64,000 nt of DNA from assembly GCA_949358305.1 (NCBI GenBank), contig OX442316.1, positions 15,998,001 through 16,062,000 of the forward strand. Reading direction: 5' to 3'. This document shows, piece by piece, positions 3,001 through 64,000 of this stretch; the first letter of the stretch is position 1; each line of letters opens with the position of its first letter. The DNA comes from Strigamia acuminata (lineage: Eukaryota > Arthropoda > Chilopoda > Geophilomorpha > Linotaeniidae). The position numbers and the translations under genes are program-made. The notes beneath the pieces were generated by a model. The model saw only the letters and a list, made by a program, of their open reading frames with translations, made no database searches and was not told the DNA's origin.

Positions 3001-3205
3001 GCTCTGGCCCGTCTAGGGCCGCGAGCGATGCAGCTTGCTCCTCTTTCTGCGCCTTCGCTCTCCTTTTATTCGCTCGGGCTTTCGCCTTTGCGGACATTTC
3101 AGGGACGGGACCATCCGATCTCAGGTGGTAGTCGGAGGTCCTTTTTCCCTTCTCGGGCATTCTCTGCTCGGTTTCAGACGTGGATTGCTCGTCTTTGTCT
3201 GACAT
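65..3205 (-). CDS. gag: Retrotransposon gag polyprotein, 1046 aa
   Basis: Intact 1046-codon frame starting at the first ATG after the primer site. The N-terminal two thirds are charged and low in complexity (long Glu/Arg-rich coiled-coil stretch around residues 230-420, then Ser/Asp/Arg-rich linkers). A retrotransposon-gag fold follows at roughly residues 640-790 (WYQGLKNPTWDDF, then an RFDLRYGE-type segment). Near the C terminus (about residue 1010) is a CCHC zinc knuckle, CYSCGEYGHYSDKC, for RNA packaging. Gag would assemble the virus-like particle that carries the element RNA. The frame stops 64 bases before the window edge, so pol is either a separate frame or reached by frameshift. An uninterrupted frame of this length suggests a fairly recent insertion. 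Confidence 0.85.
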   Translation of the reverse strand: MSDKDEQSTSETEQRMPEKGKRTSDYHLRSDGPVPEMSAKAKARANKRRAKAQKEEQAASLAALDGPERERVPLNMQPFEDTDPEAIENREEIRDVSPGRVSILMTEETNEAPRETVTVGTNPSPPTAQTSVEQTPRKNDGGTPITPRVTASPAVVSFEVSHLIRLTQQAAQLKAMIDIPVGTSVWESITLLTDAICAAQAPTPVARPAAETPMPQVTPSDTGGFAPDPNRTLHESREKAREEARQEATSRQRRLSAERRELWKEEEEREQRERRTTERTEKLVQKMREEREAKIRKEWNATVEGRHREAQEYEDQFQALIAQRKTEKLQMLRKEAILQHQKWEEQHRERLREEEARKEKEQFLKEKEEWDRVRWTEEYKAKKQAIIDEQKRWEAENWEKETEKFQKEYAQDVSDRKKNEENLKRKPEPPSGSDTDTGEGATKPAKTAKRGKSQKRDESVPKTKDRHPSKRSETGAAIDALLEKKNANKNRERPESEENRWHSFYENNDGGEPPPSGGSKQKKAGGETPPRGPRFHPQGDPSEPSDSSDDDHPSRPSTGRSQEDSDGHRSNRPNASDRSSRSSNPRSEEGNFQDSSGRHYTMSELGRALLNSFRREGIDLGHPGDEHNRAGERVKRKYGVRNEPSSEATGNIRWQHYIQTRFDGSWKAGDRFLDEVMRIKKATKATVADMLTHGLVELTTGSAREWYQGLKNPTWDDFLVRFDLRYGETPDEISNKLRGLRQAPGETLADYDARAKLLFARAPYEINPAGFTMIFYGGLSAHSQRILLDMRAPRTGDYQDVSNYLLTNTLEIEQRYYATLPPEEADAHEKRLQTSAERHKTSEKLMRPSEYLSGIMSLTEASFGRMLTPKAGSILPANPIAAPKKAPAATAMQVTSTDSTQMEKVEETTPLATAKEEEPASSDEEALNEHLENLSTGCDDQGPYLHHAHRALAIAQFRAHVQATKARGALGGKRRFPTPFVPKKPGFTPTGDKSNIKCYSCGEYGHYSDKCEKTVKEKGIMQTLMKMMMELNTNLAKNSQAQASPK

Positions 3206-3279
3206 TTTCTTTCGGTAATTCTACGATTTGGGTTATCTTATTGAGAGATCACAAGTTCAGATTTGAGATTTATTTCTAA

Positions 3280-18717: not shown

Positions 18718-18933
18718 TGTAGTTTTAGTTCTAATATGTTGGAGGCAAAAAAATGGAGACGCGTGGCTTTTTTGGTGAAATATTAACAGTGATGGTTTTA
18801 ATCTAAAACAGATGTTTAAAAGTGCGCGGAGCACTAAATACAAAACAGGGCACTGATTGGTCAGTGCCAAATACAGGTGCACAGGTGGCAAAGACACCTG
18901 GCGGATAGGAATACAACATTCAATAAAACAACA
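18718..18933 (-). repeat. Copia 3' LTR (216 bp)
   Basis: In the element's sense it runs TGTTGTTTTATTG to CTAAAACTACA. It includes a perfect hairpin (GGCACTGA, TTGG loop, TCAGTGCC) near 18850. I see no difference from the other LTR. Confidence 0.95.
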
Positions 18934-19055: not shown

Positions 19056-22000
19056 TTAAACAATTTCCTTCAATCCAAATTGGGCGATCAATTCTTCGTG
19101 TTTTGGCTTAAAAAGCCCCTTGGTCAACACATCGGCGACCATCTTCTCACTCTCCAGGAATTCTATGTCGATATCTCCCCGCTCACATGTTTCTCGAACG
19201 AAATGGTGGCGAATGTCGATGTGCTTGGTTCTGGAATGAAAAATTGGGTTTCGCACCAATTTGTGTGCCCCCTGATTATCGCTATAAATGAGGGTCGTTT
19301 CTTTCTTCTTGTTGATGTATTTAATTTCGTCTAGGAAGTTTCGCAAGTAGATTGCTTCTTTTGACGCGTCGGCCAACGCCATATATTCTGCTTCGGTCGA
19401 CGAGGTTGCGACGGTCTTCTGCTTTCTTGCTTCCCAGCATATTGTCGCGTTCGCGAGTTTAAAACAGTAGCCGGTGTACGAGCGACGGTCGTCCAAGTTT
19501 GCTCCCCAATCTGCATCCGTGTAGCCGACTAAGTCTTTTCCGGTCTTTTCGAATTTTAGCCCGAGATTCGATGAGTGCTTCAAATATCTTAGGACGCGTT
19601 TTGCTGCTGTCCAATGAGTTCCGGTGAAGCACGTATTATATTGACTTAATGCGCTGACGGTGTAGGAAATATCGGGTCGAGTGCAAACGGCGAGGTACAT
19701 GAGTGATCCGATTAAACTTTGGTACGGGAACTTCTCTGGATCCAGTAGCTCTTCGTTGGTCCCATCCTCCTTTTTCTTGTTTTTCTGCAATTTCTGATTT
19801 GCGTCGAGTGGAGTTGTGTTTTTCGAGCAGTCTTGCATTCCGAAACGATTCAGTATGTCCTTAACGTATTTTTTCTGCGCCATCGTGATTGATTTCGTCT
19901 TTTCGTCCTGTTTAAACTCGATTCCCAAGCAGTAGTGAATTTGTCCTAAATCCTTCATTTTGAACTCGCTCTTCAGGTTCGATTTTAATTTCTCCAAGTT
20001 TCTTTTGCAGTTCGTTGCGATGATAAAATCATCCACGTAGATTGCGACGAGCGTGATGACTTCTCCATTCGTTTGGTAATACACGCATGGGTCTGCGTTT
20101 GTTGGCTTCAGTCCGTGCTTTTGCAACTTCTCGTCCAGTTTTTTGTACCACTGGCGACCCGACTGCTTCAATCCGTATAACGCCTTTTTCATCCGGCAGA
20201 CTTTTCCTTTCTTGATTTTTATTCCAGCGATAAATTCCAAATATTCGGGGAATTCCATAAAAATTTCCTCTTCGATTTCGCCGTTCAAATATGCCGTTAT
20301 CGCGTCCATTTGGTGTACGGTCAATCCCAACTCGGCTGCGATTGCCATCATCATTCGAATTGATCCCGGTCGTGCGACGGGCGCGTAGGTTTCAAAATAG
20401 TCGATGCCTGGCTGCTGTGCATATCCTTTGGCGACCAGTCGGGCCTTTCTGCGTTCGATTGACCCGTCTGCTTCAAATTTTGTGCGGAGGACCCATCTAC
20501 ATCCGATTACGTTTCTATTTTTCGGTCGGTCGCACTCCTCCCACGTTTCGTTTTCAATTAAAGCGTCGTATTCGTCCTTCATCGCTTTCATCCATTCTTG
20601 TGGGTCATTTCCATTCAAAGCTTCGGCCGCTGTTGTTGGATCGTCGAGAATTGCTATCTGTGCAATTTCGTCCAAAACTTCATTAGTTGTTGTCAGATTC
20701 TTTCTTGTATATTTCTTTCTGGGTGGGTCCCCATTTCGGTTTGGATAAGGTTTTGGTGTTCTAGTGGATCGTCGTGGAATCGTTTTCGTGTTTTCATTTT
20801 GACGAGGTTCGGCTTCTTCGTGTTGCGTCTTTCTCTCGTTCTCATTTTCGGGCTCGGCTACATTGTTGGGTTCGTTCTCGTTTGCGTTCTCTATTTCATC
20901 TTCGGAATTTTCGGTTCTGTTTTCGTCTGGATCTGTTCTGGAATCGGTGAAATCATTATTAAAATTATTATTATCGTCTTCTCCACATTCTTCATTCGTC
21001 TCATTTTTTGATTTTTCGACAAATTTCACGTCTCGACTTTTTATAATCTTATTTTCGCTTTTCGACCATAAACGATACGCCTTCGATCCGTCCCAATATC
21101 CGATGAGAATACATTCTTTTGACTTCGGTTCGAACTTCCCTTTGTTTGGTTTCTTGTCCAACGCAAAGACTCTGCTCCCGAAAACTCGAAAATAGTCGAC
21201 ATTTGGTTTTCTTCCGGTCCAAACTTGATGCGGGATTTCATTTTCTAAACTTCTAGTTGGGCATTTATTTCGGATGTGGCATGCAGTGTTGATTGCTTCC
21301 GCCCAGTACGTGTTGGGCAATTTTGCTTGCAGTAACATGCATCGTGCCATCTCGATCAAAGTTCTATTCATTCTTTCCGAGACGCCATTTTGTTCCGGGG
21401 TTCGTTCGACGCTGGTTTGGCGCTTTATGCCGTTTTCTTGTAAATACGTGTCGAATTTCTTATTTACATATTCCTTCCCGTTGTCCGATCGTAAAACTTT
21501 TAGTGCGCAACCAGTTTCCCTCTCGCAAAACGTTTTAAATGACTTGAATGCCTCGAAAACTTCGCTTTTGTGCTTCAGAAAATACACCTTGCACCACCTC
21601 GATTTGTCGTCGGTGAAGGTCACGAAGTATCTTGATCCGTTCATGGACTTTGTTGGCATTGGTCCGCAAACGTCCGAGTGTACAAGTTCCAGCAGTTTTT
21701 CGCTTTTTGACGTGGAGTCAGGAAATTTCGTACTTGCGTGCTTCCCCTCGATGCAAGTTTCACAAGTTGGCAGCTTGGCGTCCTTTTCCAAATTCATTCC
21801 GTCCGCCTTTTCGTTTAGTATTTTCAGACTTGACTCGTTCAGGTGCCCAAGTCTTTTGTGCCATTCTTGTATTTTCGTACTTGCGGGTTTTGCAGGTTTT
21901 GATCCGGTTCCGACTTCGATTTCCGCTGCAGTCGCAGCATCCTCGGTCTCGTCGACGATGTAATACAGTCCGTTCCTTTTTTCGGCGGTGAATACGATTT

Positions 22001-23171
22001 CTCCCTTCGGATTTATCACCTCTGCTGATTTATCATCGAAAATCACCTTGTGTCCCCGTTCTGTGATCTTCCCGACTGACATCAAATTCGTTCGTAGATC
22101 TCGCACCAAAAGAGTTTCCGCCAAATCCAGCTTCACATTTCCGTTCCCGGTGTTGACGACAATTTTCGCGGTTCCTTTTCCGTCGATTTTTGTACTCGCT
22201 TTGCTGGCCAAATTCAGTTTTTGGTTTTTCAGGAATTCGATCGTCGAAAATGTTGAATCGTTCGAGCACATGTGGGAGCTGGCGCCGCTGTCCAAACACC
22301 AATTTTTCGGTCGTGACGTCTCGCTTATCAGCGCTGTCTCGATTTGCTCGCAGAAAAATAATTCGTACTTGGATTTCTCGGCTCTTGATGCGCTTTCCTT
22401 CTTGCTTTTACTTCGGCAATCGGCGATTTTGTGGCCAATTTTTCCGCAACCGTGACACTTGTATTTGAAAACTGGCTTCTCGGTCGAATTCGAATTTTCG
22501 TCGCCGTATTTCTTTGGTTGCTTACGTTTTTGGAACGTTTTTCTGGCCATCATGGCGTCCGACACGTCTTCTTTTCCTTTTCCGCGGGCGATCGACTCGT
22601 CTTTGATTTTTCCCTCCAAAACTTCCAGTGAAGGCAATTTGTCTTGCGATTCTATTGCGCATCTGAAGTTGTCGTAAGAGTTTGGCAGGCTTAGTAGTAG
22701 TAGAATCGTCGTGAAGTCTTCGGGCATCTTGAAATCCATGTCTAGTAGCTTATCCACCAGCTCGAAGAATTCTTTTAAGTGATTCTCCACGTTTTCTCCG
22801 TCCGCCATTTTGTGTGTTGCGAGTCGTTTTAACAACGTGATTTTTCTTGCCGGTCCTTTCGATTGGTACACACTGTGCAACTTCTTCCATAATTCATTCG
22901 CGGTGTTGCAATTTTTGGCCATTCGAAGTTCCGATTGTTTTATATTTAGCAAAATGTCATTTTTGGCTGTTCGATCACTTTTCTCCCACGTTTCGATCTC
23001 CTTCACGCGTTTCGCGTTTCCTTCGATGGTTTCTGGTCGTTTCGACGTACCTTCCGCGTGCACGAGTAGGTCCCGTTGATCCAAAATTGCTTCCATCTGG
23101 ATCTTCCATGTGTCGAAGTTTTCCTTTCCCAACGCCTCGATTCGAGCTGAATTTCCGCCGCCGTTCGCCAT
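19056..23171 (-). CDS. Copia gag-pol polyprotein, 1371 aa
   Basis: Single frame in Ty1/copia order. Gag is N-terminal (about residues 1-230), with CCHC knuckle CHGCGKIGHKIADC at about 239-252. The protease has active site LDSGASSH at about 293-300. The integrase zinc-binding region (KRLGHLN ... CETCIEGK) and catalytic core (HSDVCGPM, RSDNGKEY, TPEQNGVSERMN) follow. The reverse transcriptase carries the signature YVDDFIIA, and the C terminus is RNase H (YTDADWG, SSTEAEYMAL, YSDNQGA, HIDIRHHFVRE). Length is close to Drosophila copia, about 1400 aa. All catalytic motifs are intact and there is no stop or frameshift. Gag and Pol would be made from one frame; how the ratio is set is not visible. 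Confidence 0.97.
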   Translation of the reverse strand: MANGGGNSARIEALGKENFDTWKIQMEAILDQRDLLVHAEGTSKRPETIEGNAKRVKEIETWEKSDRTAKNDILLNIKQSELRMAKNCNTANELWKKLHSVYQSKGPARKITLLKRLATHKMADGENVENHLKEFFELVDKLLDMDFKMPEDFTTILLLLSLPNSYDNFRCAIESQDKLPSLEVLEGKIKDESIARGKGKEDVSDAMMARKTFQKRKQPKKYGDENSNSTEKPVFKYKCHGCGKIGHKIADCRSKSKKESASRAEKSKYELFFCEQIETALISETSRPKNWCLDSGASSHMCSNDSTFSTIEFLKNQKLNLASKASTKIDGKGTAKIVVNTGNGNVKLDLAETLLVRDLRTNLMSVGKITERGHKVIFDDKSAEVINPKGEIVFTAEKRNGLYYIVDETEDAATAAEIEVGTGSKPAKPASTKIQEWHKRLGHLNESSLKILNEKADGMNLEKDAKLPTCETCIEGKHASTKFPDSTSKSEKLLELVHSDVCGPMPTKSMNGSRYFVTFTDDKSRWCKVYFLKHKSEVFEAFKSFKTFCERETGCALKVLRSDNGKEYVNKKFDTYLQENGIKRQTSVERTPEQNGVSERMNRTLIEMARCMLLQAKLPNTYWAEAINTACHIRNKCPTRSLENEIPHQVWTGRKPNVDYFRVFGSRVFALDKKPNKGKFEPKSKECILIGYWDGSKAYRLWSKSENKIIKSRDVKFVEKSKNETNEECGEDDNNNFNNDFTDSRTDPDENRTENSEDEIENANENEPNNVAEPENENERKTQHEEAEPRQNENTKTIPRRSTRTPKPYPNRNGDPPRKKYTRKNLTTTNEVLDEIAQIAILDDPTTAAEALNGNDPQEWMKAMKDEYDALIENETWEECDRPKNRNVIGCRWVLRTKFEADGSIERRKARLVAKGYAQQPGIDYFETYAPVARPGSIRMMMAIAAELGLTVHQMDAITAYLNGEIEEEIFMEFPEYLEFIAGIKIKKGKVCRMKKALYGLKQSGRQWYKKLDEKLQKHGLKPTNADPCVYYQTNGEVITLVAIYVDDFIIATNCKRNLEKLKSNLKSEFKMKDLGQIHYCLGIEFKQDEKTKSITMAQKKYVKDILNRFGMQDCSKNTTPLDANQKLQKNKKKEDGTNEELLDPEKFPYQSLIGSLMYLAVCTRPDISYTVSALSQYNTCFTGTHWTAAKRVLRYLKHSSNLGLKFEKTGKDLVGYTDADWGANLDDRRSYTGYCFKLANATICWEARKQKTVATSSTEAEYMALADASKEAIYLRNFLDEIKYINKKKETTLIYSDNQGAHKLVRNPIFHSRTKHIDIRHHFVRETCERGDIDIEFLESEKMVADVLTKGLFKPKHEELIAQFGLKEIV

Positions 23172-23262
23172 CGTTTCTTAGTTCTGTTTCTTGTGGAATG
23201 TTCGTGTTAAATTCGTTTTTAACTTCCTCGAATGTTCCGGTACAAAACTTGATGATTTTTAA

Positions 23263-32859: not shown

Positions 32860-35800
32860 ACTATGATTTTAAAATGAAAATTTCTACTTAGTTGTCATTT
32901 TCTGTATAGACAGTTGTGGCGCAAGGTCTAAGCTTAAACATCAAAGCTGGCGAAACGGTTGCGTTGGTTGGACCCAGCGGAGGAGGAAAATCCACCATTT
33001 TACAATTGATTCTTCGGTTTTACGACCCGCAAGAGGGCGAGGTAAGTTTACAATGATTCCCTTAAGCTCCTAGTAAATGTCCGTGTGGTTAATCTTATTT
33101 GAGACCAAACTCTCAGGCAACTTTTTGAACCAGGCGATTGTTTTGGCGTTTGTTTACATGTGGCAAAGTCTCGCCAACCAGACCTGAATTGATGAGAGTT
33201 GGAGCCGATCAACAGGTAGATTAAGTCCATTGATTTTAACTGATTCGTTCATTGTAGATTCTTATTGACGGAGTTCCACTGAGAGAATTAAACATCGGTT
33301 GGTTCCGAAGCAATGTTGGCGTGGTCAATCAAGAGCCGCATTTGTTCAATACAACCATCAGAGAAAACATCAAATTTGGCAAGGAAGACGCTTCTGATGA
33401 AGAAATCATTGCGGCTGCTAAAGCGGTCCACGTCCACGAGTTTATCCTTAAATTACCTCAAGTAATTCTTCATTTTTCTTTTAAAAAGAGGCCTATATTT
33501 ATTGTCGAACATTTGCTTAGCAATATGATACGGTGGTAGGTGAACAGGGCTCTCTCTTAAGTGGCGGTCAAAGGCAGCGAATTGCAATAGCTAGAGCGTT
33601 AATCAGAAATCCGGCCATTCTGCTTCTGGACGAAGCCACTTCTGCTCTAGACAGCGAAAGCGACAGAAAAATTCAAGATTCCTTAACTAAAGCCAGTTGT
33701 GGACGAACCGTGATCATAATTGCGCATCGGCTGAGCACGGTTCGGACTGTGGATCGAATAGTTGGAATCAAAGATGGCCAAGTGGTGGAACAGGGGACGC
33801 ATCAAGAATTAGTGGACAAAAAGGGACTGTATTATCAACTGTTGCAATCTCATGAAGATAAAGGTAAGCAAATAGTTTGTGCGTTCCATTGCTGCCCAGA
33901 AGTCGTAAGTTGGTTGATGGTTGTTTAGGTGAAGAAGACGAAGAAAATGCAGATGGTGAAAGATCATGTTCAAATGCACTGAAACACGATCGCTCCACAC
34001 ATGATTATCTGCAGGCTGGAAGTACTAAAGATTCTTCCAGTTTGGTACGAGCTAAACACATTCTGACCAGTGAATCCACTAACTCTCATTGGTCAGTTGG
34101 CGAATTACTGCTGGCTTCCTCGCGCATCAGAAAAAAGTTCCGATAATTTGTTTGCTTTACATGTAACAATCAGGGTCAGATTTAAGCAAATGCAAAAGTG
34201 ACGAAATTTTGCCGTGCTGCTGTGCCAAAAATTGCTAACAAGTAAGCTATTTGTGCAGAATTTGTGCATTTGGGGCGCCATGGAAAAATCTTGAAACCAC
34301 TGGGCTAGATAATGACGCGATCATTCTCATTAAATCAACACTGGCACGATTATAATTAGTGGATTCTTTAGGCAGATAGTGTGTTTGACATATGACATTC
34401 AGTATTTACTGTTTACGTTTGTTTCTCTTTCAGTTGGCAAACAAATCTGAAATGAAGAAATCATTCTTGGCGATGCTTCAGCTTTGCACGAGCGATTTCT
34501 TTATTTTTATTGGTATTGCATCATCAGCTCTCTTCTACGTGCTTTGTCTATTAGCAAGACCATTTACTGCAGCAAACTTACTAAATGTAACGTCTCTCGA
34601 GTGGATAGTGATTATTCATGCATTTCACATTATTTGTATTTAGTTAATAATAGAGAAAAGTTACTACGGTCACCATCACACATTTGCGTTTTGGGCTGGA
34701 AGTTCCATACTTGTAGGAGTCGGCGTTCCTCTATCATTTCTCACGAAACTGGGTCTGCAATGTATGGCCGAGGAAAACTTGCTCGTGCGCATCCGCCAGC
34801 GCGCATTGGCGGCCATTTTGCAACAAGATGTCGGCTGGTTCGACGAAACGAGTCAAAATGTTGGCAATTTGTGCTCGATGATGATGATTGACGCCGAAAA
34901 TGTGAAACAGGTGTAATAAATGTCGAATTGTAAATTGTTAGTTTGAAATATTCACTTTTTGTGTCTCTTTAGATCCCTGGTGCCATATTAGGATCGTGGC
35001 TTTTCACGAGTCTCGCATTCACGATGATGCTGGCATTCAGCTTGTGGATGCAATGGAAACTAGCGCTAGCAGTTGGCGTAATGTCCATCGGCATCTTTGC
35101 GAGTTATTACGCAAAAGAAAAATTCGACCGTCAACTATTGCAGCAAAGAAACACTGCAGACACACGCGCAAACAATGTAATTCAGTACAACTAACAAACC
35201 CGCCTTTCCTATTGGATGTGGATGTTTAAAGTCTATTCCTGCCATCCAAGTACTGATCAGATCCAATGTTGCTTAACTTCTGTATTCTAGTGGTGAGCCG
35301 TAACCTGAACGTGCGTAAAATTGAGTTAGGTTTAAGTCCAGCACAGATTAAATTAGCTTATGTCTGCCTTAGGTTTAGATTAAGTAGTAACATGTCCTTT
35401 TTTATTTTGCTTACCTCATCACGCTAATTTAATTTAATTATTATTATTCATTATTCCAGCTAGCGGTCGAAGCAATTCGAAGTGTGCCGACAGTTGTATC
35501 TCAGCACATCCAACATTTGATTTCCAACAAGTATAACAGATTATTGGGCCAAAGAAATGGGTAATTGGTGAAACGAGTTTAGCTTTGTCGGATTCCAATC
35601 ATGCATTTGAATTATTAGATTTTTCAATCTGCTGTTGCACAAAAGAGCGTTAGCAGTTGCGTCGTCGGATGCTTTTTGTTATTTCGCAGGTGCACTGGGC
35701 ATGGTGTTTGGTGCTTATCTAATGTCGTGTAATGAAATCGACTTTGTCGGATTCCGAACGTAATTGTTCTTTACTGTACACTTATTGGTTATAAACTTAT

Positions 35801-36569
35801 CTGTTTCGATCGTATCGTTTGGTTTTGATCAATGTGCTTGTCAACAATATGTGGGAAGTCATGATTGCTTTCTCTGCGATACCGAGTTACAGCAAAGCTT
35901 GCATTTCTGCTCGTACATTTGTCGACTTGTTCGCTAGAAAAGCGTCGATTGATAAGTCGAAATCGGCAGGCATTCAATTGGCACGTTACAAATAAGTGTA
36001 GTTAGTTGATTACCGATAATTGGTGAATTTTATTATTTCTTGAATAGATAAATGCGATGAAACCCAAAATCGAGTTTACTAACGTCCGGTTTTCTTACCC
36101 AACGAGACAAGACTATGAAGTTCTGAACAATTTGAATTTTGTGGTTGAAAGTGGGGAAAATGTGGCAATTGTAGGTGCGAGTGGATGCGGAAAATCAACG
36201 TGTTTGCAGTTACTTCAAAGATTTTACGACCCAATCGATGGAAAAGTGGTAAATGTTTGCCTCGCCTTTATTTCTATATCCACTCTAATGTATCTTCGCT
36301 TTAGACATTGAGTGATGTCGACATCAGAGTTTTAAACGTGTCCTATCTGCGTTCATTAATCGGCTACGTGTCGCAAGATCCGGTGCTTTTCAGTCGAACT
36401 ATTGGCGAAAACATCGCTTATGGTGACAACGAGCGCAAGGTCGAAATGCACGAAATAATCGATGCGGCGCGCAAAGCAAACATTCACGAATTCATTACGA
36501 GTTTGCAACAGGTCTATTAGGCTTAAAAATTCACATTTGACGCGTGAAAAATACTAAAATGTTTGTTAA

Positions 36570-37283: not shown

Positions 37284-40200
37284 TTATAAACTTACTATAA
37301 ATATTAAAAATGATACATAGAAAACACTCAATAACGCAATTGCCACATACGCCACTATAGAAATCGCTAGTGATTCGAATTGTAAACTAATTACGTAATC
37401 TTGAAGGAAATAAGCGTTTATTATAATTATGATAACAGCCAAAGACGTGACAATGGCTCTTGATATCCTGTAGGAGAATAAACATTTGTTGTGTTGTCCT
37501 AGATTTGTTTAAAGATAAAATGTTTTACCTTCCGTTTTTGAATTCGTCCATTATGTCTTCACTGTTGGTGAATGTTAGAAGTGGGATGAGGGTAAAAGGG
37601 AGTTGGAGCGTCATGACTGCGTTCAAAACGTTATTCATGCCGGTCAGGTCCTCAATTCCATTAAAAGCAGCCGTGAAAACAGTCGGAACTACGGCGCATG
37701 ATCGTGTCAGAAGAGTTCTTTTCCAACGTGGCCATTCCAAATTAAGGAATCCCTAGCAACAAAAAAATAATCAGTTTTATCAGTTATTTGCTCAAATTAG
37801 CATAAAATGAACCAAATTTCCCATTTATTTACTCAAATTAGCATAAAATGAACCAAATTTCCCATTTATTTACTCAAATTAGCATAAAATGAACCAAATT
37901 TCCCATTTATTTACTCAAATTAGCATAAAATGAACAAATTTCCCATTTATCTGCTCAAATTAGCAAAAATTGAACCAAAATTAAATCAAATTTACCATTT
38001 ATTCACTCAAATTAGCATAAAATGAATCAAATTTCCCATGTATTTACTCATATTAGCAAAAAATGAACCAAAATTAAATCAAATTTACCATTTATTCACT
38101 CAAATTAGCAAAAAATTAACCAAATTTGCCATGTATTTACTCAAATTAGCATAAAATGAACCAAATTTCCCACTTATTTACTCAAATTAGCATAAAATGA
38201 ACCAAATTTCCCATTTATTTCCTCAAATAACCAAAAATCCACTCAATTTCAATCAGAAAAAACTGTTGATTTAATTAAAAAATAGTTTAGACTCAGCCAC
38301 TTTATCCAGGTGGGGTTTCCTATTAGTTTGAACCCCTATTTATTGACCCAATACCCAAGCAATGTCAGGGCTAACCTTATTTACCCCATTCACAGCCCCA
38401 CTGACCCTATTTACCCCACTCAGGGTCTTGTTTCATTTCCTTACCCCATTCAGGGCCATGGCGACCTTCCTCACCCAATTCAGGGTCGTGCTGACCTTCC
38501 TTACCCCAGTCAGGGTCTTGGTGGCCTTCTTTACCCCATTCAGGGTCTTGTTGACTTTCCTTACCCCATTCAGGGTCAAGGTGACCTTATTCACTCTCTA
38601 GAGCACTAGGGAGGCCTCAACCCTGAAACATTTACCCAACTGACCTTCTCTTCACTCTCTACAGCTCTGTGGTGCCCTTAACCCTGAGGAAATGCACACA
38701 GGTGACCTTATTTAACCAAAGGGAAGTACTTAGTGGCCTTATTCACCCATAGAAGGGTTGTGCAGTGACCTTATTCGCTCTCGACTGAGGGTGAAGCGAG
38801 AAATTGGATCATTTTTAAACAATAGGTGGCCATTTTGGGATTTTTTGTGACGTCATAAGACTGATTTTTGTGTACCTCCATAACGAATTGTCCCGCGTAT
38901 GTTCCTGCAAAGAAAAGTGATGAGATTTAATTTTTTATTTTTATTTTAGTTTGGTTAAAAAGTTAAAAACCAGTCAGAGTTGAGCTTTGTCCAGCTGCCA
39001 AGATTCCAACTGCCCAAATGTACATTGCTGCAGCGCCGAATTGACAGCCGAGGAAAACACCCTGTTGGAGAATTGTATTTTTTTTGTATCTGGGTTTGTT
39101 TTTGGTGTTTGGGTTTAAATTAATTTGGAATAATCATTACTGCTTTGTACAAATCAGCTTCAATGGCGTGAGTGTTGTTCTGCAATGCACAAACAGTTGT
39201 ATACATTGGTTTTGCTTGAATTGTGTCACAGTTAGGCTTATCTCACCTTGAAAATCACTGCGTGGGCCATACTGTCTGTGTTTGCACACAGATTGAACTT
39301 GACAAAATATAGATATCGTTAAAAAACATGAAAGAAATCTCTTAAATTTGATGATTTACCACATCTTGGTTGGTTTTTCCATGCAGTCCATGGGCAAAAA
39401 CAGCCAAAACAAACACATTGATGATGAAGGAAACCAGCAGTGCGATTGTTGTTTCGATTAAGTAGTACTTATTGGCTTCTCTGACTGCAAATTTGCTGGT
39501 TCTGTCAATATTTCTAGACTGGCAACAATGAGAGAGAAAAAGTAAAAAATTGTGGACATAAAGTATTACACAGGGTGTTTACGTTCAAGTGTTCCAGGCA
39601 AACTACGGAAGAACAAACAAGAAATTCAAAAATGTGTTTAAACACTAGCTGCATTCAAAAATTAAAATAACAATTTTAGTTTAAGTGTATTTTAAGTTTA
39701 AACATTGGTTTAATCAGTAAATGATGTCATTTTTGGTTTAAAATTAAAGTAAAACACAAAATTTTTGAGTTTATGAATGCAGCTAGTTAAATAGGAAGTG
39801 TTAGGTGGTGATTTCAATGGCACTGTGAAAATTGACCCTTGACTTTAGAATTATGGTCAATCAGTTTGAATTTCTAGTCATTTGTTTTGTTAATTGCCCG
39901 GAAAACTTAACCCTGTAAATTTGATTACCTTAACTAAGGCTGAATGTAAAAACATGTTATGAGGCATGATGACAGCCCCTATGATTCCTACAGCTTGCAA
40001 CAGCTCATCACTTGAGCAGTCATCACAATATGGGATAAACATTCCTTTTAAAACCTCTTTTTGGTCAGGGCCAACAAGAAAATACTACAAAATGATACAA
40101 ATAACATAAATTGTGCTATATGTTATTATTTACATGATTTATACTTCAAAACCAAATGTGGCAGCCATTATTGCTATAAGAACTGCAAAAAAGGCTTCAA

Positions 40201-55405: not shown

Positions 55406-56598
55406 AGTGTTATTCATTAATTCGCTCGTTTCGTGCTGAATGTTTTTCGACATTTTTTGGTACATAGTTTGTGAGAAGTAGAGAATTTTACGAGTGACTT
55501 TGAGAGTTTGAGAACCTCAATCTCGACATTTTTCCCGGTCCGATGCATATCCGTTATTTGGATTTTGATGGGAATAGTTAATCTCGCTCTCGCTCATGCA
55601 GATCGATGTGAAATAATTTTTAAATTTGACGAACTTTTACGTTTATTTTTACCCATTTAGGACGACAAAACTGAAGTAAAAATAAGTCGTGTAAAAAAAA
55701 CCGTTGGTTTTTAATGTTTGACGTTTGAATTTGTATAATTCTGAAATGAACTGTCAAGAGGAATGGATTGTTTGAAATTGCTTCGTTTTGTAAATTTTCC
55801 AACGAATTTCCAATAAAGTATACACAAATTTTTGATGGATTTCAATGTGTAAACGTAAAATAGGCGTAGTTACTTATTCCAGTGTGGTTGTTAATACGTT
55901 TGAACCGGAAGTGGAATTCACAACTGTACTGGAATTGTAGATAGCTATTGAAAAAACACAAAAACACGTTATATTTAATTTTGATTTAAGTTTTTATTTC
56001 TGTTTAATTATAATTAACATTTGATTTGCTTCAAATTTCATATCCTGAGTCTGAAAAATAATTTTGTTCCTTATCATTTAATATTATAGGTTTTGATTTT
56101 TTTTTTCTACCACGTAATCTTCATCCGCCATGATGATTGGACATTTTCTTGATAAACACCGGGAGAGGATTAAAATTTTGTGATAAGAAGAGATAATCTT
56201 TGGCGAAACAGCATTCAGTGCCGAATCCCAATCTTGGAACTTAAAGAAAAGTAAGATTTTGCATTTGAAAGCTCGAAAAAAAGTGATGTGCGGATTCCAG
56301 CACAGTTGTCTTGGAAACGGTATTCACAAGTGTACTGGAATTGGGCTATCCTCATGTTTTTCTTACATCTGACAAATCTTCAATAACATCAAACGATTTG
56401 TCATTCGAATTTCTTCCGTAACAAACATTTTCGTACAAACTTCGACTTGGAAAAAGGAATTGAATTTCTTCAGAAATTAATGCGATATTCCTTCGAATCC
56501 AATGCACATTAACATCTCTTATATTACAATTGCTTATTAACTACAAAAACACTCTTCTTATTCTAATTTTTTGTAAAAAATAATTTAAAAAGTATGAA
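55406..56598. other. Convergent intergenic region between KAT2 and gene E
   Basis: No gene is seen on either strand, and in particular no ATPase-domain exon for gene E. Hairpin elements with ATTCCAGT...ACTGGAAT ends lie at about 55876-55939 and 56294-56347; a relative sits in KAT2's last intron (55081-55175). Confidence 0.55.
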
Positions 56599-59500
56599 TT
56601 AATCTGCTACCATTTGTCTTTCAAATGGATATTGTCCTGATAAAAAGCTGTGGAAAAATTTCTTTTTATTTTCAACCTCAATTTCACATTTGTGACCCGG
56701 ATGCACGACTAATGGCTGCCCAAACCGTACAGCAACAAAAATTAGTTGCAGCGGGGAAGTGGGTATTGATGCCTACAAAAAGACAAAATTATCATAAATA
56801 AATTAATAAATTCAAATTAATTTATACTTGAGATTGGTTTGCAAGATGCAATTTCGATTGAGATAAAAACTTCTCGATATTTTGTGCTGCTTTCCAACCC
56901 TTTTTAACACTAAACCCAACTGCATTTAACTGATTTATTTGCAGGGCTGTATTGATCATAATTAAATTGACCCTAAAACATAGATTTTTAGAAACAAAAT
57001 AATCAAAGATGTAAAAAAAAAGAGTAAAAATCTCATACTGTAGAACATTTTTATTGTTTTCACCATGATGAATAATGAGATAGGCTCCAAAAAACAAAAT
57101 GGTAGCAAAAGCCATTTCTCGGAATGCCCGAACAAATCCCCACAACAAACTGTTTCTAAAACTTTCCGATGCACTAAAAAAATAAGACTAAAATTACTTC
57201 ATCTTTACTTTACATTAATCCCTCGATTTGTGTCTTTCTTGGGTTCTCTTCCACTCTTGTTCACCTTGGTGAAGCTTATACTCGAGTTGCACTCAAAAAG
57301 GCACCTCACAATGTGTACTCCCATTGGTCGAGCCAGTTTACTACTAACTCCAGACTGTATACTACTACTAGGAGAAGTAGTTTTGATTTTTATTTATTGT
57401 TGTGATTGTTATGACTAGTTTAGTTAATGTTATTTTGATTTTATTTAATAAAAAATGTTATTTCCATTATTAAAATGAAGTTTTACACATTAAAAAATGT
57501 CAAACTTATGTTTGTTGTGTTTATTGCTTACATCGTCTGGAAGTTTGAATTTTAGGCCGTTGCCTAGGCAATCGATTACAATGTCTGTATATTGTAATGC
57601 AATTTTGGTGTTTGGGTCTACTTTTCCGGATCACTACACCAGTAAACTGGCTCGACCAATGGGAGTACACATTGTGAGGTGCCTTTTTGAGTGCAACTCG
57701 AGTATAGGTAACTGGCCGTTAGGTCATTCCTAGTATCGTGAGTGACATCGGCTGAATTCTGTTGTAATATTTTAAATATTGGACACTCTTTGCTCTACCC
57801 TCACTACCTTCACCACGCTGTCACTCAAGGTACTGGGAATGACCTAACGGCCAGTTTTGATCGGTGATTTGTGAGAACGCCAAGACTCAATCTCAATTTG
57901 TTCTAACGTCATTCCCAGTACTGTGAGTGACACGGTTCAATGTCTTCCAGGAGTTCTTGGCGGAACTTAAAGCCCATGCAAATTGAGAGATTATACGGTG
58001 TTCAAAAACCCTCACATACTTTTTCTTTTTCTCTGTCACATACTGCAGAAAATATATTGCAAACAAGGTTGGAAATATATATGACAAAATGAGTGCTTGA
58101 GACCAAACAACGCTTGATGCTAATGGCAAAGCCACAAGAACTGCTGAAACAATTTCCACACCGGTCCCTAAAACACTTGTCACAGCCTAGAATGTGAGCA
58201 GAAATATAAGGAGTTAACATGTTGAAAACATCTTTACTTACCAGTTGCACATTTAAGACATTTTGGTGCAATAACAAGTCAAAATTATCAGTTGTTTGTA
58301 CGTTGCAGTTGGTGAAATAGGACATCAAAAGTGTTGTTCTAAGCTTGTTTGAATACAAATATCCTAACACTTGCACCACATAGTGTTGCAAAACTGTTGC
58401 AATCAAAGTTGTTATTGCCAGAATGGAAAATGCACCCAACATTTGAGTAGTTCTATCAAACACTGTTTCATCCTCCAAATTGGCCATTGACTACACATGC
58501 AGAATGTAAAACAATCAGATTAAGGGATTGAGCAGAGCAGCAAACCTCAGGGACAGTAAGCTTAACTTACCCCAATGATTTCACAAAAGATGTAGAAAGT
58601 TGTAGGGATTGTACTCCCCAAAACAATTGATCCCACACATCCAAAAAGTATGTAAGGCCAAAATGAGTACAAACATTTGAGGGTTACAAACTCTTGCTGC
58701 TTGTTTTCCACTAGGAAATAAGTCTGGCTGTCTGAAGTGTGCAAAACCAATCTCCCAATTGCAGTTTTATCAGCCAATAAACCATTTTTGTGTGACAAAA
58801 AAGATGGTTTTGGGTTGAATGGTAATGGTTTGTCTGCTTTGATGGGGGGAATTAATAATCTGGCATTTTGACAAACACAAAACTGGAAATTAAGAATAAC
58901 AGAAATTAGCAGAAAAAATTAAACATTACCAATCTTTATTCACTCAGAGAATCCACTAAACTCTATTCCAAAAAGTATTTGAAATACTCCCATTGGTTGG
59001 GAGATTCATAACACCAGTATAAATGCATTGCGACAAAACAGCACAAGTCTAATGGAATCTGAAAACAGCATCATATTCAATACACAACTGAACTAGAGAC
59101 AAAATCTCCAATGGGAGTATTTCAAATACTTTTTGGAATAGAGTTTAATTCTCATTGGTCAGCCGAAAAAGCCGCGAAAACTTGTTCGCTTTATCGAAGG
59201 AGGGCGCTGAATATACTAAAGCGCTACGGATTAGAGTTTCAAGCATGTTATGATTTCCAGCCATCCAATGAGAATTAATGAATCATCTGAGCAGACTGAG
59301 TTTATTTATTTATTCATTACTTGTAAATGTTTTCCTAGTCTCGCAGTTGCTTTTAAGCTGGCTTTAACGACTGGATAACATGGTACTGCTTGGATGAATG
59401 TGGTTAGTCCACGAAGAAATGAAAAAAAGATCTATTTTTAGTGCGAATTAATGAAAATATATTGAATTGTTCATAATTTAAATGTTGATCTTACAACAAC

Positions 59501-62500
59501 TAAATTTCCAGGTCTAAATGGTGAATCTTCCTTTCTAAGATCTTCAATGATCAATTTGACCCCATACCACAACATTATGGCATTTAACAGATGGGAAAAC
59601 ATTGTAATCATTCCATTCACTGTTCCTGATGCGAGTGCAATTTTTTGCACGTATTTTTCCAAGTTATTTAATTGAAATTGATATCTGAAAAGAATTAAAA
59701 TTAGCATTTTTTAAAATTTGATTTGTTATAGTCATTTAGTTTAAAACCGACACCAGATGTCGCCCAGTAACAAAATGGCCGCAATGTTTCTCGTTTTCCT
59801 CGCTCCTCGCTTGTTTGGCGACAATTTGACCCCAGATTGGGAGTTTCACGTAAGAAAATATCGGATTAAATATGCTGATTGTTAGTTGATCGTTTTAATT
59901 AATCTCAATTTCTAGAACGAGACGATGTCCAACGACAACAAACAACGAGAACCAGACGGCAGTTTGGGCAAAGATGGCGGCTGGCTTGGCGGGATCAGTT
60001 AAAACAAGGTTTGAAATTTTACCGTTCCACCTCCGCACTTTCCTGATTAAATGCAACTACCGTGGGAACAGCTCTTAAAGTATCAAGTAGTTGAGACGTA
60101 ATCGATGCGTATCCTCGTTTGAATTTAATAATTGTGGGTTTATTCAGCTGTAAATGATTTTTAAAAATAATGTTAAACTGCCAATTGGAGGATTTGACAC
60201 AATACCTGACTAATTGTGCTCCCGTTAAGCTTTAGAATTAAATATGGGAGTAAAATCAGTGCTAGTTGCCATTTTCTGTAAAACGATAATCCCACGCAAC
60301 CAATCAAAGTGACAAAAGCTGACACTAGGAGACCAAAGTTGTTATTCAAACCCTTTTCGACTTGTCTGACATCACTGAAATTAACAAAATTTAGCCAAGT
60401 TTTAGTCGTCAGTGTGTGTGTTGTGGGAGAAAATATTCAAATGATTTGTTACTCCAAAAGGGATTTGTTTTGTCCATGAGGTGTTTGAGTTTTGGCCAGT
60501 AGAGAATGGCGCAAACGAGTGCAGAAACGAGCGCAGACGAAATCGAAGAGGAATGTCGTGAGGAAACCAGTAAGCAGTTGACATAAGCTCACAATGAGAA
60601 GACTGTAGCAGATGGTGTGGAGTGAAGCTTCGAATTTGTAATTGAGGTGGAAATTCAAACTGAAAATTGTACATTTCTTAGAAAATTAACGTTAATGAAA
60701 ATATTTTTTCTTAAAATTTAAATCAAATTATAAAAATGCAAATTTTTGAAACCATGTTAAATCAAAAGAAATCGTGTAAAAACAGAATTGAATTGAACTA
60801 TACTTTCAGCATCTCGGCCGTTTTCAAGTCTCGTTTTCCTGAGACGAGATCTCGTTCGAGACAGAGACAAATAAAATCAGATNNNNNNNNNNNNNNNNNN
60901 NNNNNNNNNNNNNNNNNNNNNNNNNNNNNNNNNNNNNNNNNNNNNNNNNNNNNNNNNNNNNNNNNNNNNNNNNNNNNNNNNNNNNNNNNNNNNNNNNNNN
61001 NNNNNNNNNNNNNNNNNNNNNNNNNNNNNNNNNNNNNNNNNNNNNNNNNNNNNNNNNNNNNNNNNNNNNNNNNNNNNNNNNNAGGAACGAGATCTCCGAG
61101 ACCGGATTACAAGACGAGCGAGATCCGGAAGTATAATCATGAACCAAGGATAACACGGACACGTATCCATATGTTATTTCCTATTGATTCGTTGTTCTGT
61201 GCGCTGATTGGATGACAGTAATCACATGTCATGCGTTGCTTGTCAACTAATGTAATCTCGGCTGAACGAAGTGAAGCGGAGCGAACGAGTGAAAGCCGAT
61301 AGCATTCACTCATGTAATCGGAGGTTTAACAGAATACAACGCGGCCATATATTATGTGGCGCCATCTGTGGCAAAACGCACTGAACATGTGGATACGTGT
61401 CCATGTTATCTTTGGTTCATGATTAAATCAAAATCTTGTAAAACCAGAATTGGGAAAGACACGAGGTTTTGTCACGCTTACTCCAATTCTTCACTTATAG
61501 TATGATTGTGCGCAGTCAGTGTAAGCGAGGAATTGGTGTGAGATTGGGCAAAGTGCTCGACGCTTTCTTCAATGTCATGCGCTAGTAGGTGGATGTTTCT
61601 ATCGGTTTCTTGTTCGTAGTCTGTGTGATTTTTTCCTTGTCGAAGCAGCACCGATAGTCTAGCTCTTCGGTTTGTGATGAAAAGAGTGACGACTTCTCCC
61701 ACAAAGTAAACTGCACTTGGTACGGTTAGGCCTAAAACAATGGCTGACAGGAAGCCAATGAATAGCAGAATGTATTCCAAAGGCGACAAACACTTGAACT
61801 GAAAACAAAGTTTTTGTCTCGTCAGATTTGCAGATTGATTAATGTGATGCAATTATTTTGCAATTTACCACATTCCTGATTGCTGTGAAATTTGTTGAAG
61901 CTTTTGAATGACAGCCAACTTCACAATCACTATTACACACAATAGAAAGAATCATTAATTTTTTTGTTGCTAAACCAAATCTTCATCTTTTATGCAGAAC
62001 TCTGCGACCTAAACTCATTTCGTGTTCTGTAATGCTAAAAACTTCCTCAAAAACCTCACAAAAGTCTCTCAAAATCTACAAAAATGTCAAAAACCACCCA
62101 AAATTCTCTAAAAACCTACAAAAACCGGCCAAAACTCCCAAAAATGGAGGTTTGCAGCTATTGTAATTCCCCAAAGTGATGAATTTTGTAGAACGGAAAA
62201 ATAATAACAACTTATGTCGTAGTTCATTTTAAACAAATTTAATCCACCGATGATGAAGCGGGGCGCGGAAAATCGCCTTTCTTAAAAATGGGTCGCAATG
62301 CTAAAAAGTTTGAGAACCCCTGATCTATCCTATAAAAATTCTATTTTTTAATAAAGGGGCCTGCGAAGGAGTTAAAACGGCACTGATAACACACTGGGTC
62401 TCTCCTGGATCCGCCTGTATGCAAATTAGGGTCTAACGAGGTGTTTGGTTTCCACACTTTCCAGAAAAACAGACCCAGGAATTTACTGTACACAGCTTTC

Positions 62501-62677
62501 ACTAGCTGCATTCAAAAATAAAAATAACAATTTTAGTTTAAGTGTATTTTAAGTTTTAACATGGGTTTAAACAGGAAATGATGTCATTTTTGGTTTAAAA
62601 TTGAAGTAAAACACAAAATATGTTAGTTTTTGAATGCAGCTACTGTTAAAGAAAATAGGAAAGTTTACATACGCCAT
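56599..62677 (-). CDS. Gene E: ABCB-derived membrane protein lacking both ATPase domains, about 815 aa
   Basis: Minus-strand exons: 62673-62677 (ATGGC), 61869-61929, 61482-61798, 60453-60659, 60206-60374, 60023-60147, 59495-59684, 59321-59431, 58571-58882, 58242-58490, 58186 to about 57920, 57039-57173, 56828-56972, 56599-56772. Phases agree at every junction except the one before 57173, where MITEs sit. TMD1 is complete and parallels exons 2-8 of copies B/C (exon 6 has the same 125-bp length, ending PTVVAFNQESAEVER). Exon 8 ends KATARLGKHLQ and is followed directly by an exon with about 70 linker residues and TM7 (SFWPYILFGCVG): no NBD1 lies between. TMD2 follows (FLQYVTEKKKK, RAFREMAFATILFFGAYLI). 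The last exon equals the Walker A exon of A-C (FVAVRFGQP for FTNVRFSYP) but has no Walker A, signature or Walker B, and stops. Not a conventional ATP-driven pump as read; a decaying gene is the main alternative. Confidence 0.78.
57277..57706. repeat. MITE with about 60-bp inverted ends in gene E
   Basis: TATACTCGAGTTGCACTCAA at the left is mirrored at the right (CTCGAGTATA, ending 57706) and the inversion runs on for about 60 bases. TA is the likely target duplication. Confidence 0.85.
57710..57856. repeat. Second MITE directly next to the first
   Basis: AACTGGCCGTTAGGTCATTC and GAATGACCTAACGGCCAGTT form perfect inverted ends. Its inner sequence GTGAGTGACA resembles the end of the neighbouring gene E exon (57909-57945). 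Confidence 0.8.
58958..59145. repeat. MITE with TA duplications between TMD1 and TMD2 exons of gene E
   Basis: AACTCTATTCCAAAAAGTAT and its inverse are the ends; TA at 58956-58957 and 59146-59147. It splits a copy of the dispersed motif GAATCCACTAATTCTCATTG. Confidence 0.85.
59148..59300. repeat. Short inverted-repeat element with ATTCTCATTGG ends
   Basis: Left end AATTCTCATTGGTCAGC, right end ATCCAATGAGAATTAATGAA. It is a member of the dispersed family also seen in introns 2 and 13 of ABCB copies B/C and before copy A exon 14. Confidence 0.5.
60883..61082. other. Assembly gap (200 N)
   Basis: Exactly 200 N lie within a gene E intron between two GAACGAGATCTC-type repeat copies. The fixed length suggests an unknown-size gap, so extra sequence may be missing here. 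Confidence 0.99.
61138..61421. repeat. MITE with about 37-bp inverted ends beside the gap
   Basis: CATGAACCAAGGATAACACG at the left and its near-inverse (TTATCTTTGGTTCATG) at the right. No coding frame. Confidence 0.75.
62502..62642. repeat. Second copy of the CTAGCTGCATTC MITE, in gene E intron 1
   Basis: Nearly identical to 39645-39786 (same ends and the inner ACAATTTTAGTTTAAGTG). Confidence 0.8.
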
Positions 62678-63051: not shown

Positions 63052-64000
63052 TTATAAAAGTGGTCTGGAAAGTCGTCGGCGCGTTCCCTGTTGGATTTGA
63101 AGGATTTCGTAGTACATGCCCCGCTTTTCGAACAACTCGTCCGGCGTGCCTTGTTCCACGATTTGTCCGTGGGAGAAGACGACGATTTTGTCCACGTTTT
63201 GAATGGTCGACAACCTGTGGGCTATTATGATGCATGTTCGACCTTCCTGCGCCTTTTCCAACGACTCTTGCACTATCTAGATGAAGAAAAACGTGAAAGA
63301 AAAATTGAAAATGAAAATTTGGACAAATTTAACCCTCCCCACCCCAACCTAGGGTCAATTTTGACCTCCAAAAATGTTTTTATTTTTTTTCTCCAAAACT
63401 ATTGGGATTTTCATTCTGAAATTTCATGTATTTTCATTTGTCATCATAACAACCAATAAAAAAAATAATAGATTTAAAAATCGCATAAAAAATTTTTCAT
63501 AAAAATCCTTTGTTTACTCACTACTTTTGAATGCAATGTCAATTATTTTTGTCGCTCTCTTTTGATAAATACCGAATTGATTAAATTTCTTCAGAAACAT
63601 GAAATCCTCAGAGAATAAAATCATTTTCACTCATTTTTGGAAAAATTTTTTCGGCTTGGGATCAAAAATGACCCGGGTTGGGTGAGTAAGGGATTTTTTT
63701 TAGGTTAGGGCTGCGAGGGTTAAAAACTTTACCTTTTCGCTCTCGTTGTCCAGCGCGGAAGTTGCTTCGTCCAATAGCAATATTTTTGGATTTTTGATCA
63801 GAGCACGAGCAATGGCCACTCTCTGTTTTTGACCACCGCTTAATTGCACACCTCGAGCACCAACTCGAGTTTCATATCCCTGTTTTTTAATAATAATAAT
63901 CAGTAAAAAAAATAAATGAATAAATGCATTGTAGTACTTGTCGCAAACTCGTTATGAATTCGTGTATGTTGGCCTTCTGGGCTGCGTCTATTATTTCGTG
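63052..64000 (-). CDS. Gene D: ABCB/P-glycoprotein-like transporter, C-terminal NBD2 (runs off the window)
   Basis: Three minus-strand exons: 63938-64000 (partial, HEFITSL), 63733-63879 ([37 protein letters not shown]) and 63052-63276 ([20 protein letters not shown] to the stop). Exon lengths and borders equal exons 21-23 of copies A-C (the middle exon is 147 bp in all). Signature, Walker B and H-loop are intact; Walker A lies off the window. It is a conventional full ABC exporter as far as visible, in tandem with gene E and 374 bp upstream of it. Confidence 0.93.
63333..63719. repeat. PiggyBac-type MITE in a gene D intron
   Basis: The 387-bp element starts CCCTCCCC and ends GAGGG. TTAA flanks it on both sides (63329-63332 and 63720-63723), the diagnostic piggyBac target. 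Inside are inverted GGGTCA...TGACCC motifs. No transposase. Confidence 0.85.

Follow-up and report, generated by a model that had tools for sequence, protein, structure and literature searches.

The window analysed here is a 64,000-nucleotide (nt) stretch of the Strigamia acuminata genome (contig OX442316.1, positions 15,998,001 to 16,062,000), and all coordinates below are positions within it. It contains several drug-pump-like genes and beside them a strongly diverged ABCB-type gene, E, located on the minus strand and modelled as 17 exons separated by 16 GT-AG introns, which together encode 901 codons in frame between 62677 and 55994 (Table 1). Gene E has the membrane domains of an ABC exporter, whereas the first of the two nucleotide-binding domains (NBD1) is missing and the second (NBD2) is represented by a degenerate remnant. 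A reading of the window made from its sequence only (the sequence-only reading) had described a divergent minus-strand ABCB gene with GT-AG introns and matching phases, and this description is borne out, with the model now at 17 exons. Absent from that account were the loss of an exon between exons 11 and 12, a miniature inverted-repeat transposable element (MITE) bordering the start region, and exon 15.

The E model was built before the spliced models of the neighbours and after the raw sequence of gene B had been read, and is not blind; the borders of exon 3 and of exons 14 and 15 were picked with B in view. Each exon or exon part was compared with seven aligned reference rows and with 500 shuffles of itself, a test with a mild circularity in that the alignment includes E. 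In 13 of the 16 tested exons or exon parts no more than 11 of the 500 shuffles match the score, with at most six for exons 3–12 (exon 9 by the part encoding transmembrane (TM) helix 7 only) and 0 to 11 for exons 14–16. All 14 comparable intron phases (exons 3/4 to 16/17) are the same in E and B, although at 11/12 the phase alone matches and the donor is shifted. The start is ambiguous and lies either in a 9-bp exon 1 or at an ATG at 62511 immediately upstream of exon 2. Intron 3 contains an assembly gap of exactly 200 N (60883–61082).

The transmembrane domain (TMD) profile PF00664 matches E with an E-value of 5.8e-30 in three stretches, the best of which spans amino acids (aa) 32–340, and of the solved structures the bile salt export pump (BSEP; 7.6e-30) matches E best. 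Hydropathy peaks above 1.1 are present in eleven of the expected TM helices and not in TM12, and exon 14 holds a twelfth peak. Two ABC exporter membrane domains are therefore recognised, with TM12 weak; the earlier proposal that both six-helix domains stay in frame agrees with the open frame and the PF00664 match, and is less secure for this last helix. Seven N-glycosylation sequons are predicted, three of them in the first outer loop. Across 315 aligned TM columns E has the most histidines (four, all unique, compared with one to three in the references) and five unique basic residues (0–7 in the references), and we draw nothing from either count.

No NBD1 is encoded between exons 8 and 9. In B, five exons lie between the corresponding positions (108+132+204+343+128 = 915 bp), as do five in C (108+132+204+343+116 = 903 bp), entering and leaving in phase 0 in both genes. 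This NBD1/linker cassette is missing in E and the phases are kept, with exon 8 joining exon 9 at 59321/58882 from phase 0 to phase 0. That the junction is in phase, leaves no room for NBD1 and spans a MITE had been recognised from the sequence, and all three points stand for what is a 438-bp intron. Judged by comparison with B and C, NBD1 and its linker were lost from E as an in-frame cassette. The first ~66 aa of exon 9, which form the linker, have no detectable homology above shuffles to any NBD part tested. A P-loop-like strand noticed by eye in exon 9 was considered as an NBD1 relic and dismissed: in comparisons with P-loop regions 229, 428 (NBD1) and 413 (NBD2) of 500 shuffles score as high, as do 90, 449 and 147 of 500 in comparisons of exon 9 with other parts of NBD1.

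The intron 8 MITE has perfect 40-bp terminal repeats (58957–58996/59108–59147). The presence of such an element right at the junction, together with the gap in intron 3, could point to an assembly artefact, with NBD1 left out at the MITE from what is really a full-length, divergent ABCB gene. We regard this as improbable, given that there are no Ns at the junction and the phases are 0/0, that two intracellular loops (ICLs) serving NBD1, ICL1 and ICL4, are independently short, and that NBD2 is degenerate regardless.

NBD2 begins in exon 14, which the sequence-only reading took as the terminal exon. Its KKKFFHS stretch does stand at the place of the P-loop, but 56599 is not necessarily the end of the gene. 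A GT donor after 56611, in phase 0 and at the position of the intron following the neighbours' P-loop exon, allows exon 14 to be spliced to exons 15–17, which continue a degenerate and truncated NBD2. Of the two NBDs that E was said to have shed, NBD1 is thus absent, while NBD2 is still encoded, truncated and with most of its ATP-site motifs gone. Searched with an NBD profile made from B, C and five proteins of the database, exon 15 reaches 28 bits (i-E 1.6e-10, an E-value for a search of only three sequences), its best BLAST match to the corresponding neighbour exons is 2e-5 (among 1553 open reading frames (ORFs) of the window), and 0 of 500 shuffles score as high in both shuffle tests. Scores as high against NBD2 are reached by 2 and 1 of 500 shuffles of exon 16 (9 of 500 against NBD1) and by 13 and 11 of 500 shuffles of exon 14 (225 of 500 against NBD1); counts of 243 and 248 of 500 leave exon 17 unsupported.

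At the P-loop place of NBD2 E reads VENKKKFFHS, and at the signature place IISSYHK instead of LSGGQ; the Walker B acidic pair is kept (IIMADE). Neither GxxGxGK[ST], nor LSGGQ, nor a recognisable H-loop is found in this domain, and PF00005 is not listed for E at E-values up to 10 in a Pfam search with filters on. E therefore departs from a full ABCB protein, which has two NBDs with Walker A, signature, Walker B and H-loop. The TMD identity of E and B is 20.2% (120/595), near the 22.9% (184/802) between B and Mdr49 of the hoverfly Eupeodes, whereas that of NBD2 is 24.8% (38/153) compared to 54.7% (99/181), and constraint has apparently been lost mainly in the NBD.

Three of the four loops on which the NBDs dock are altered as well. 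Between anchor columns ICL1–ICL4 measure 46, 49, 46 and 23 residues in E and 56, 49, 52 and 71 in all seven references, such that ICL1, ICL3 and ICL4 are shorter by 10, 6 and 48 residues and ICL2 is unchanged in length. The P-glycoprotein models and cross-links described in PMC2661087 place NBD1 in contact with ICL1 and ICL4, and NBD2 with ICL3 and ICL2. With the loops so assigned, the loss of NBD1 corresponds to a shortened ICL1 and an ICL4 of which two thirds is gone, and the NBD2 remnant goes with a full-length ICL2 and a shortened ICL3. Exon 11 of E uses a donor that lies earlier and leaves the phase required by exon 12. Intron 11 contains nested MITEs with perfect 66-bp inverted repeats (57277–57342/57641–57706) located 298 bp apart, which adjoin copies of another, older-looking inverted-repeat element. 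Five candidate readings of an ICL4 exon relic in or beside this intron were rejected, as 555, 682, 989, 637 and 915 of 1000 shuffles score as high.

The retained length of ICL2 and the position of E in tandem 374 bp behind a putative pump, gene D, would suit a regulatory or scaffold partner whose membrane halves pair or compete with the neighbouring full pumps. We consider such a partner highly improbable; no result of the analysis supports an interface, and full-length ABCB pumps require no partner.

The E frame contains no stop in 901 codons, compared to a mean of 59 and a minimum of 40 in 1000 base shuffles; neither frameshifts nor premature stops of a pseudogene are present, and the phase match backs the chosen splice sites. 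In a neutral simulation (half of substitutions being transitions, 0.1 indel per substitution, 80% of indels frameshifting, and 64 splice bases) the chance that E stays intact falls from 0.44 at 0.002 substitutions per site to 0.13 at 0.005 and 0.016 at 0.01. Long neutral decay of E is very unlikely, and the slow decay entertained in the sequence-only reading is unlikely with the frame intact. This intactness suggests that the frame was held by selection until at least very recently.

A recent death is the main rival explanation and a tentative possibility: E would be an NBD-degenerate working protein just silenced by MITEs at its 5′ end and around the ICL4 exon. The MITE at the start, the young-looking perfect-repeat MITEs in introns 8 and 11, the missing ICL4 exon, the weak TM12 and the truncated NBD2 are all consistent with it. 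The 901 intact codons and the in-frame exon losses argue the other way, and the start MITE itself supplies an in-frame ATG. This MITE has terminal repeats of 27 nt (85% complementary) and is 92% identical over 151 bp to window positions 39643–39791. The 8% difference, or ~4% per copy if both changed equally, gives a rough date (the copies may have differed before insertion), and if the insertion marks the death of E, the simulation leaves the gene free of stops with a chance of 0.043 at 0.03 substitutions per site and 0.002 at 0.05.

On balance, and with confidence a little better than even, we interpret E as a membrane protein of ABC-exporter type that works independently of ATP. Its sequence shows that NBD1 has been lost as an in-frame cassette of five exons, that what is left of NBD2 is truncated and has neither P-loop nor signature motif, and that of the four NBD-docking loops three are shortened or mostly deleted. 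With NBD1, the P-loop motif and the signature gone, the established ABC mechanism predicts that the ABC ATP cycle should fail, and E, if made, should not be an ordinary ATP-driven pump. It could instead serve as a passive or gradient-driven conduit, or as a ligand-binding or scaffold protein.

Several observations weigh against an ATP-independent membrane protein. The splice sites of E were picked to keep frame, which partly forces the absence of stops, and exons 2, 13 and 17 have no sequence support (283, 56 and 248 of 500 shuffles score as high). Spliced alignment of B to the E region recovers only exon 7 with exact borders, the beginning of exon 15 and part of exon 6, along with spurious pieces, a result that we take as a sign of strong divergence. 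The PF00664 score is 105 bits for E and 214, 252, 281, 396, 417 and 422 bits in six NBD-bearing proteins, perhaps due to the missing conserved loops, and TMD identities of ~20% approach saturation. The exon 2 acceptor and the likeliest start codon come from the MITE, and nested MITEs occupy the place between exons 11 and 12 where A, B and C have the 101-bp ICL4 exon, which E lacks. One lysine of E sits in the Walker A lysine column of the alignment and, with the retained Walker B acids, might still allow residual nucleotide binding. E also has the fewest acidic residues in the TM columns (six, compared to 7–12 in the seven references, with three unique compared to 0–6). A protein search with the whole of E (words from the first 500 residues) finds just two proteins with E-values below 1e-3, neither of them close, among 7999 or 8000 candidates sharing most words, fly Mdr49 being the best match; residues 395–901 give 16 matches at E-values up to 1 (best 0.08), again among the 7999 or 8000 candidates sharing most words. 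A control search with B residues 20–330 (3502 candidates) gives three matches, the best at 27% identity, and as even B has no close relative, the database seems to be without this clade and the missing relatives of E say little about its conservation.

E resembles full-length ABCB exporters (P-glycoprotein, BSEP and insect Mdr49) in its PF00664 domains, the length of ICL2 and the sequons of its first outer loop, and its neighbour B in intron phases. It differs from the full-length proteins in the absence of NBD1, a truncated NBD2, short ICL1 and ICL3, the loss of most of ICL4 and the low TMD identity. Degenerate-site ABC exporters retain two NBDs and one intact site, and E has neither. In common with E, these exporters have an NBD in which consensus residues of the ATP site are lost (PMC7756269).

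The closest parallel is bacterial. SbmA combines an ABC-type membrane domain with proton-driven transport, and PMC13316013 contains the proposal that it arose from full ABC transporters by loss of NBDs and coupling helices. On this description SbmA/BacA (SLiPT) and E share an ABC-exporter-type membrane domain, the lack of an ABC ATPase drive (predicted for E) and the direction of loss. SbmA has no NBD, whereas E has lost NBD1 and keeps the NBD2 remnant; of the coupling loops, three of four are shortened or mostly deleted in E and ICL2 has its full length. E further differs as a single fused eukaryotic chain without added TM acidic residues, and we infer that the two are of separate origin. No SbmA-like glutamate ladder is found in the TM columns of E, and such a ladder is unsupported given that E has the fewest acidic residues there. 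That an animal ABCB pump independently took the SbmA path, losing NBD1 and most of the loops docking it, having NBD2 disarmed and persisting as a membrane protein that keeps the ABC-exporter fold and needs no ATP, is a scenario that we rate as rather unlikely.

Mutant forms of insect ABCC2 without one or both NBDs are recorded in the review PMC8145640, in whose account the results with NBD-lacking mutants seem to contradict the idea that toxin pore insertion requires ATP-driven opening. Such mutants are a hint that ABC membrane domains can be produced, and can bind, without NBDs. The view that ABC exporters without an ATPase domain are undescribed was therefore too strong, at least as the SbmA type (PMC13316013) and the ABCC2 mutants (PMC8145640) are presented in these sources. 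Among the matches listed in the open-access literature, however, there is no fixed eukaryotic NBD-less ABC gene, and the ABCC2 mutants are the only cases. An arthropod-wide ABC survey is described as having the NBD profile PF00005, at a lenient cut-off, as its point of entry (PMC8290562); with no PF00005 match in E, relatives of its kind would probably be missed by a survey so described. If E is what we propose, NBD-profile surveys using PF00005 have a blind spot for such genes, and if expressed, E would be a eukaryotic ABC exporter that keeps its membrane domain without an ATPase, and would test whether the exporter fold works ATP-free outside bacteria.

Table 1. Features of gene E and neighbouring ABC genes in the window (z, score relative to shuffles).
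Feature	Position	Strand	Evidence or remarks
MITE at E start, with exon 2 acceptor and in-frame ATG (62511-62509)	62500..62650	.	TA target duplication by eye
Exon 1 (possible, 9 bp, ATGGCGTAT)	62669..62677	-	Phase fits; weak; too short for similarity test; alternative start 62511
Exon 2, pre-TM1 stretch	62458..62505	-	Open, phase 0; z -0.2
Exon 3, TM1 and long first outer loop, sequons at aa 76, 108, 117	61482..61798	-	z 7.6
Exon 4, TM2 and start of ICL1	60453..60659	-	z 2.4
Exon 5, TM3-TM4	60206..60374	-	z 11.2
Exon 6, ICL2, canonical length	60023..60147	-	z 5.7
Exon 7, TM5	59495..59684	-	z 11.1; identical borders from spliced alignment to B
Exon 8, TM6, phase 0 end	59321..59431	-	z 3.2
Intron 8, expected site of five NBD1/linker exons	58883..59320	-	438 bp; MITE 58957-59147
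Exon 9, ~66 aa linker then TM7	58571..58882	-	TM7 part z 6.9; exact 5′ border uncertain, could lie further in
Exon 10, TM8 and ICL3	58242..58490	-	z 2.6
Exon 11, TM9-TM10, phase 2 end, shifted donor	58020..58186	-	z 4.2
Intron 11, nested MITEs	57174..58019	-	ICL4 exon of A, B, C not found
Exon 12, TM11	57039..57173	-	z 3.4
Exon 13, expected TM12	56828..56972	-	Phase fits; z 1.3, 56/500 shuffles as high; no hydropathy peak >1.1
Exon 14, NBD2 start, VENKKKFFHS at P-loop place	56611..56772	-	z 2.2 in both shuffle tests
Exon 15, NBD2 Q-loop region	56367..56540	-	28 bits; z 17.1; BLAST best 2e-5
Exon 16, NBD2 signature/Walker B region	56111..56239	-	z 4.0 and 4.8
Exon 17 (tentative), last 18 aa and stop	55994..56050	-	Phase fits neighbours' intron; without sequence support
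Gene A, second half, ABCB	to ~9.7 kb	+	Spliced alignment
Gene B, ABCB	12.7-25.4 kb	+	Spliced alignment
Gene C, ABCB	28.0-37.0 kb	+	Spliced alignment
Gene D, putative pump, C-terminal end	63052-64000	-	

The neighbouring genes A, B and C were modelled by splice-aware alignment, first with Eupeodes Mdr49 (P0001) and then with B. Gene B contains a Copia-type retrotransposon ORF on the minus strand (19056–23177; RVT_2 1.2e-68), and its TMD2 exon breaks off at 18718 and resumes at ~23511, such that B looks broken by this insertion. Gene C has an in-frame stop in the region of its TM11–TM12 exon (35619–35995), which may be either an aligner error or the mark of a broken gene.

At the left end of the window a 1051-aa ORF (65–3220, minus strand) has no Pfam match and carries near its end a zinc-knuckle-like motif seen by eye (CYSCGEYGHYSDKC), giving it the look of a retroelement gag. 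The 46.5–55.6 kb interval beside E holds what we take, by eye and with the names unconfirmed, to be a KAT2/GCN5-like gene (plus strand) and an SLC5-like transporter gene (minus strand). Between 52250 and 52850 lies a long AT-rich stretch, also noted by eye, in which units like gatcaatttcgactaaattt recur in degenerate form.

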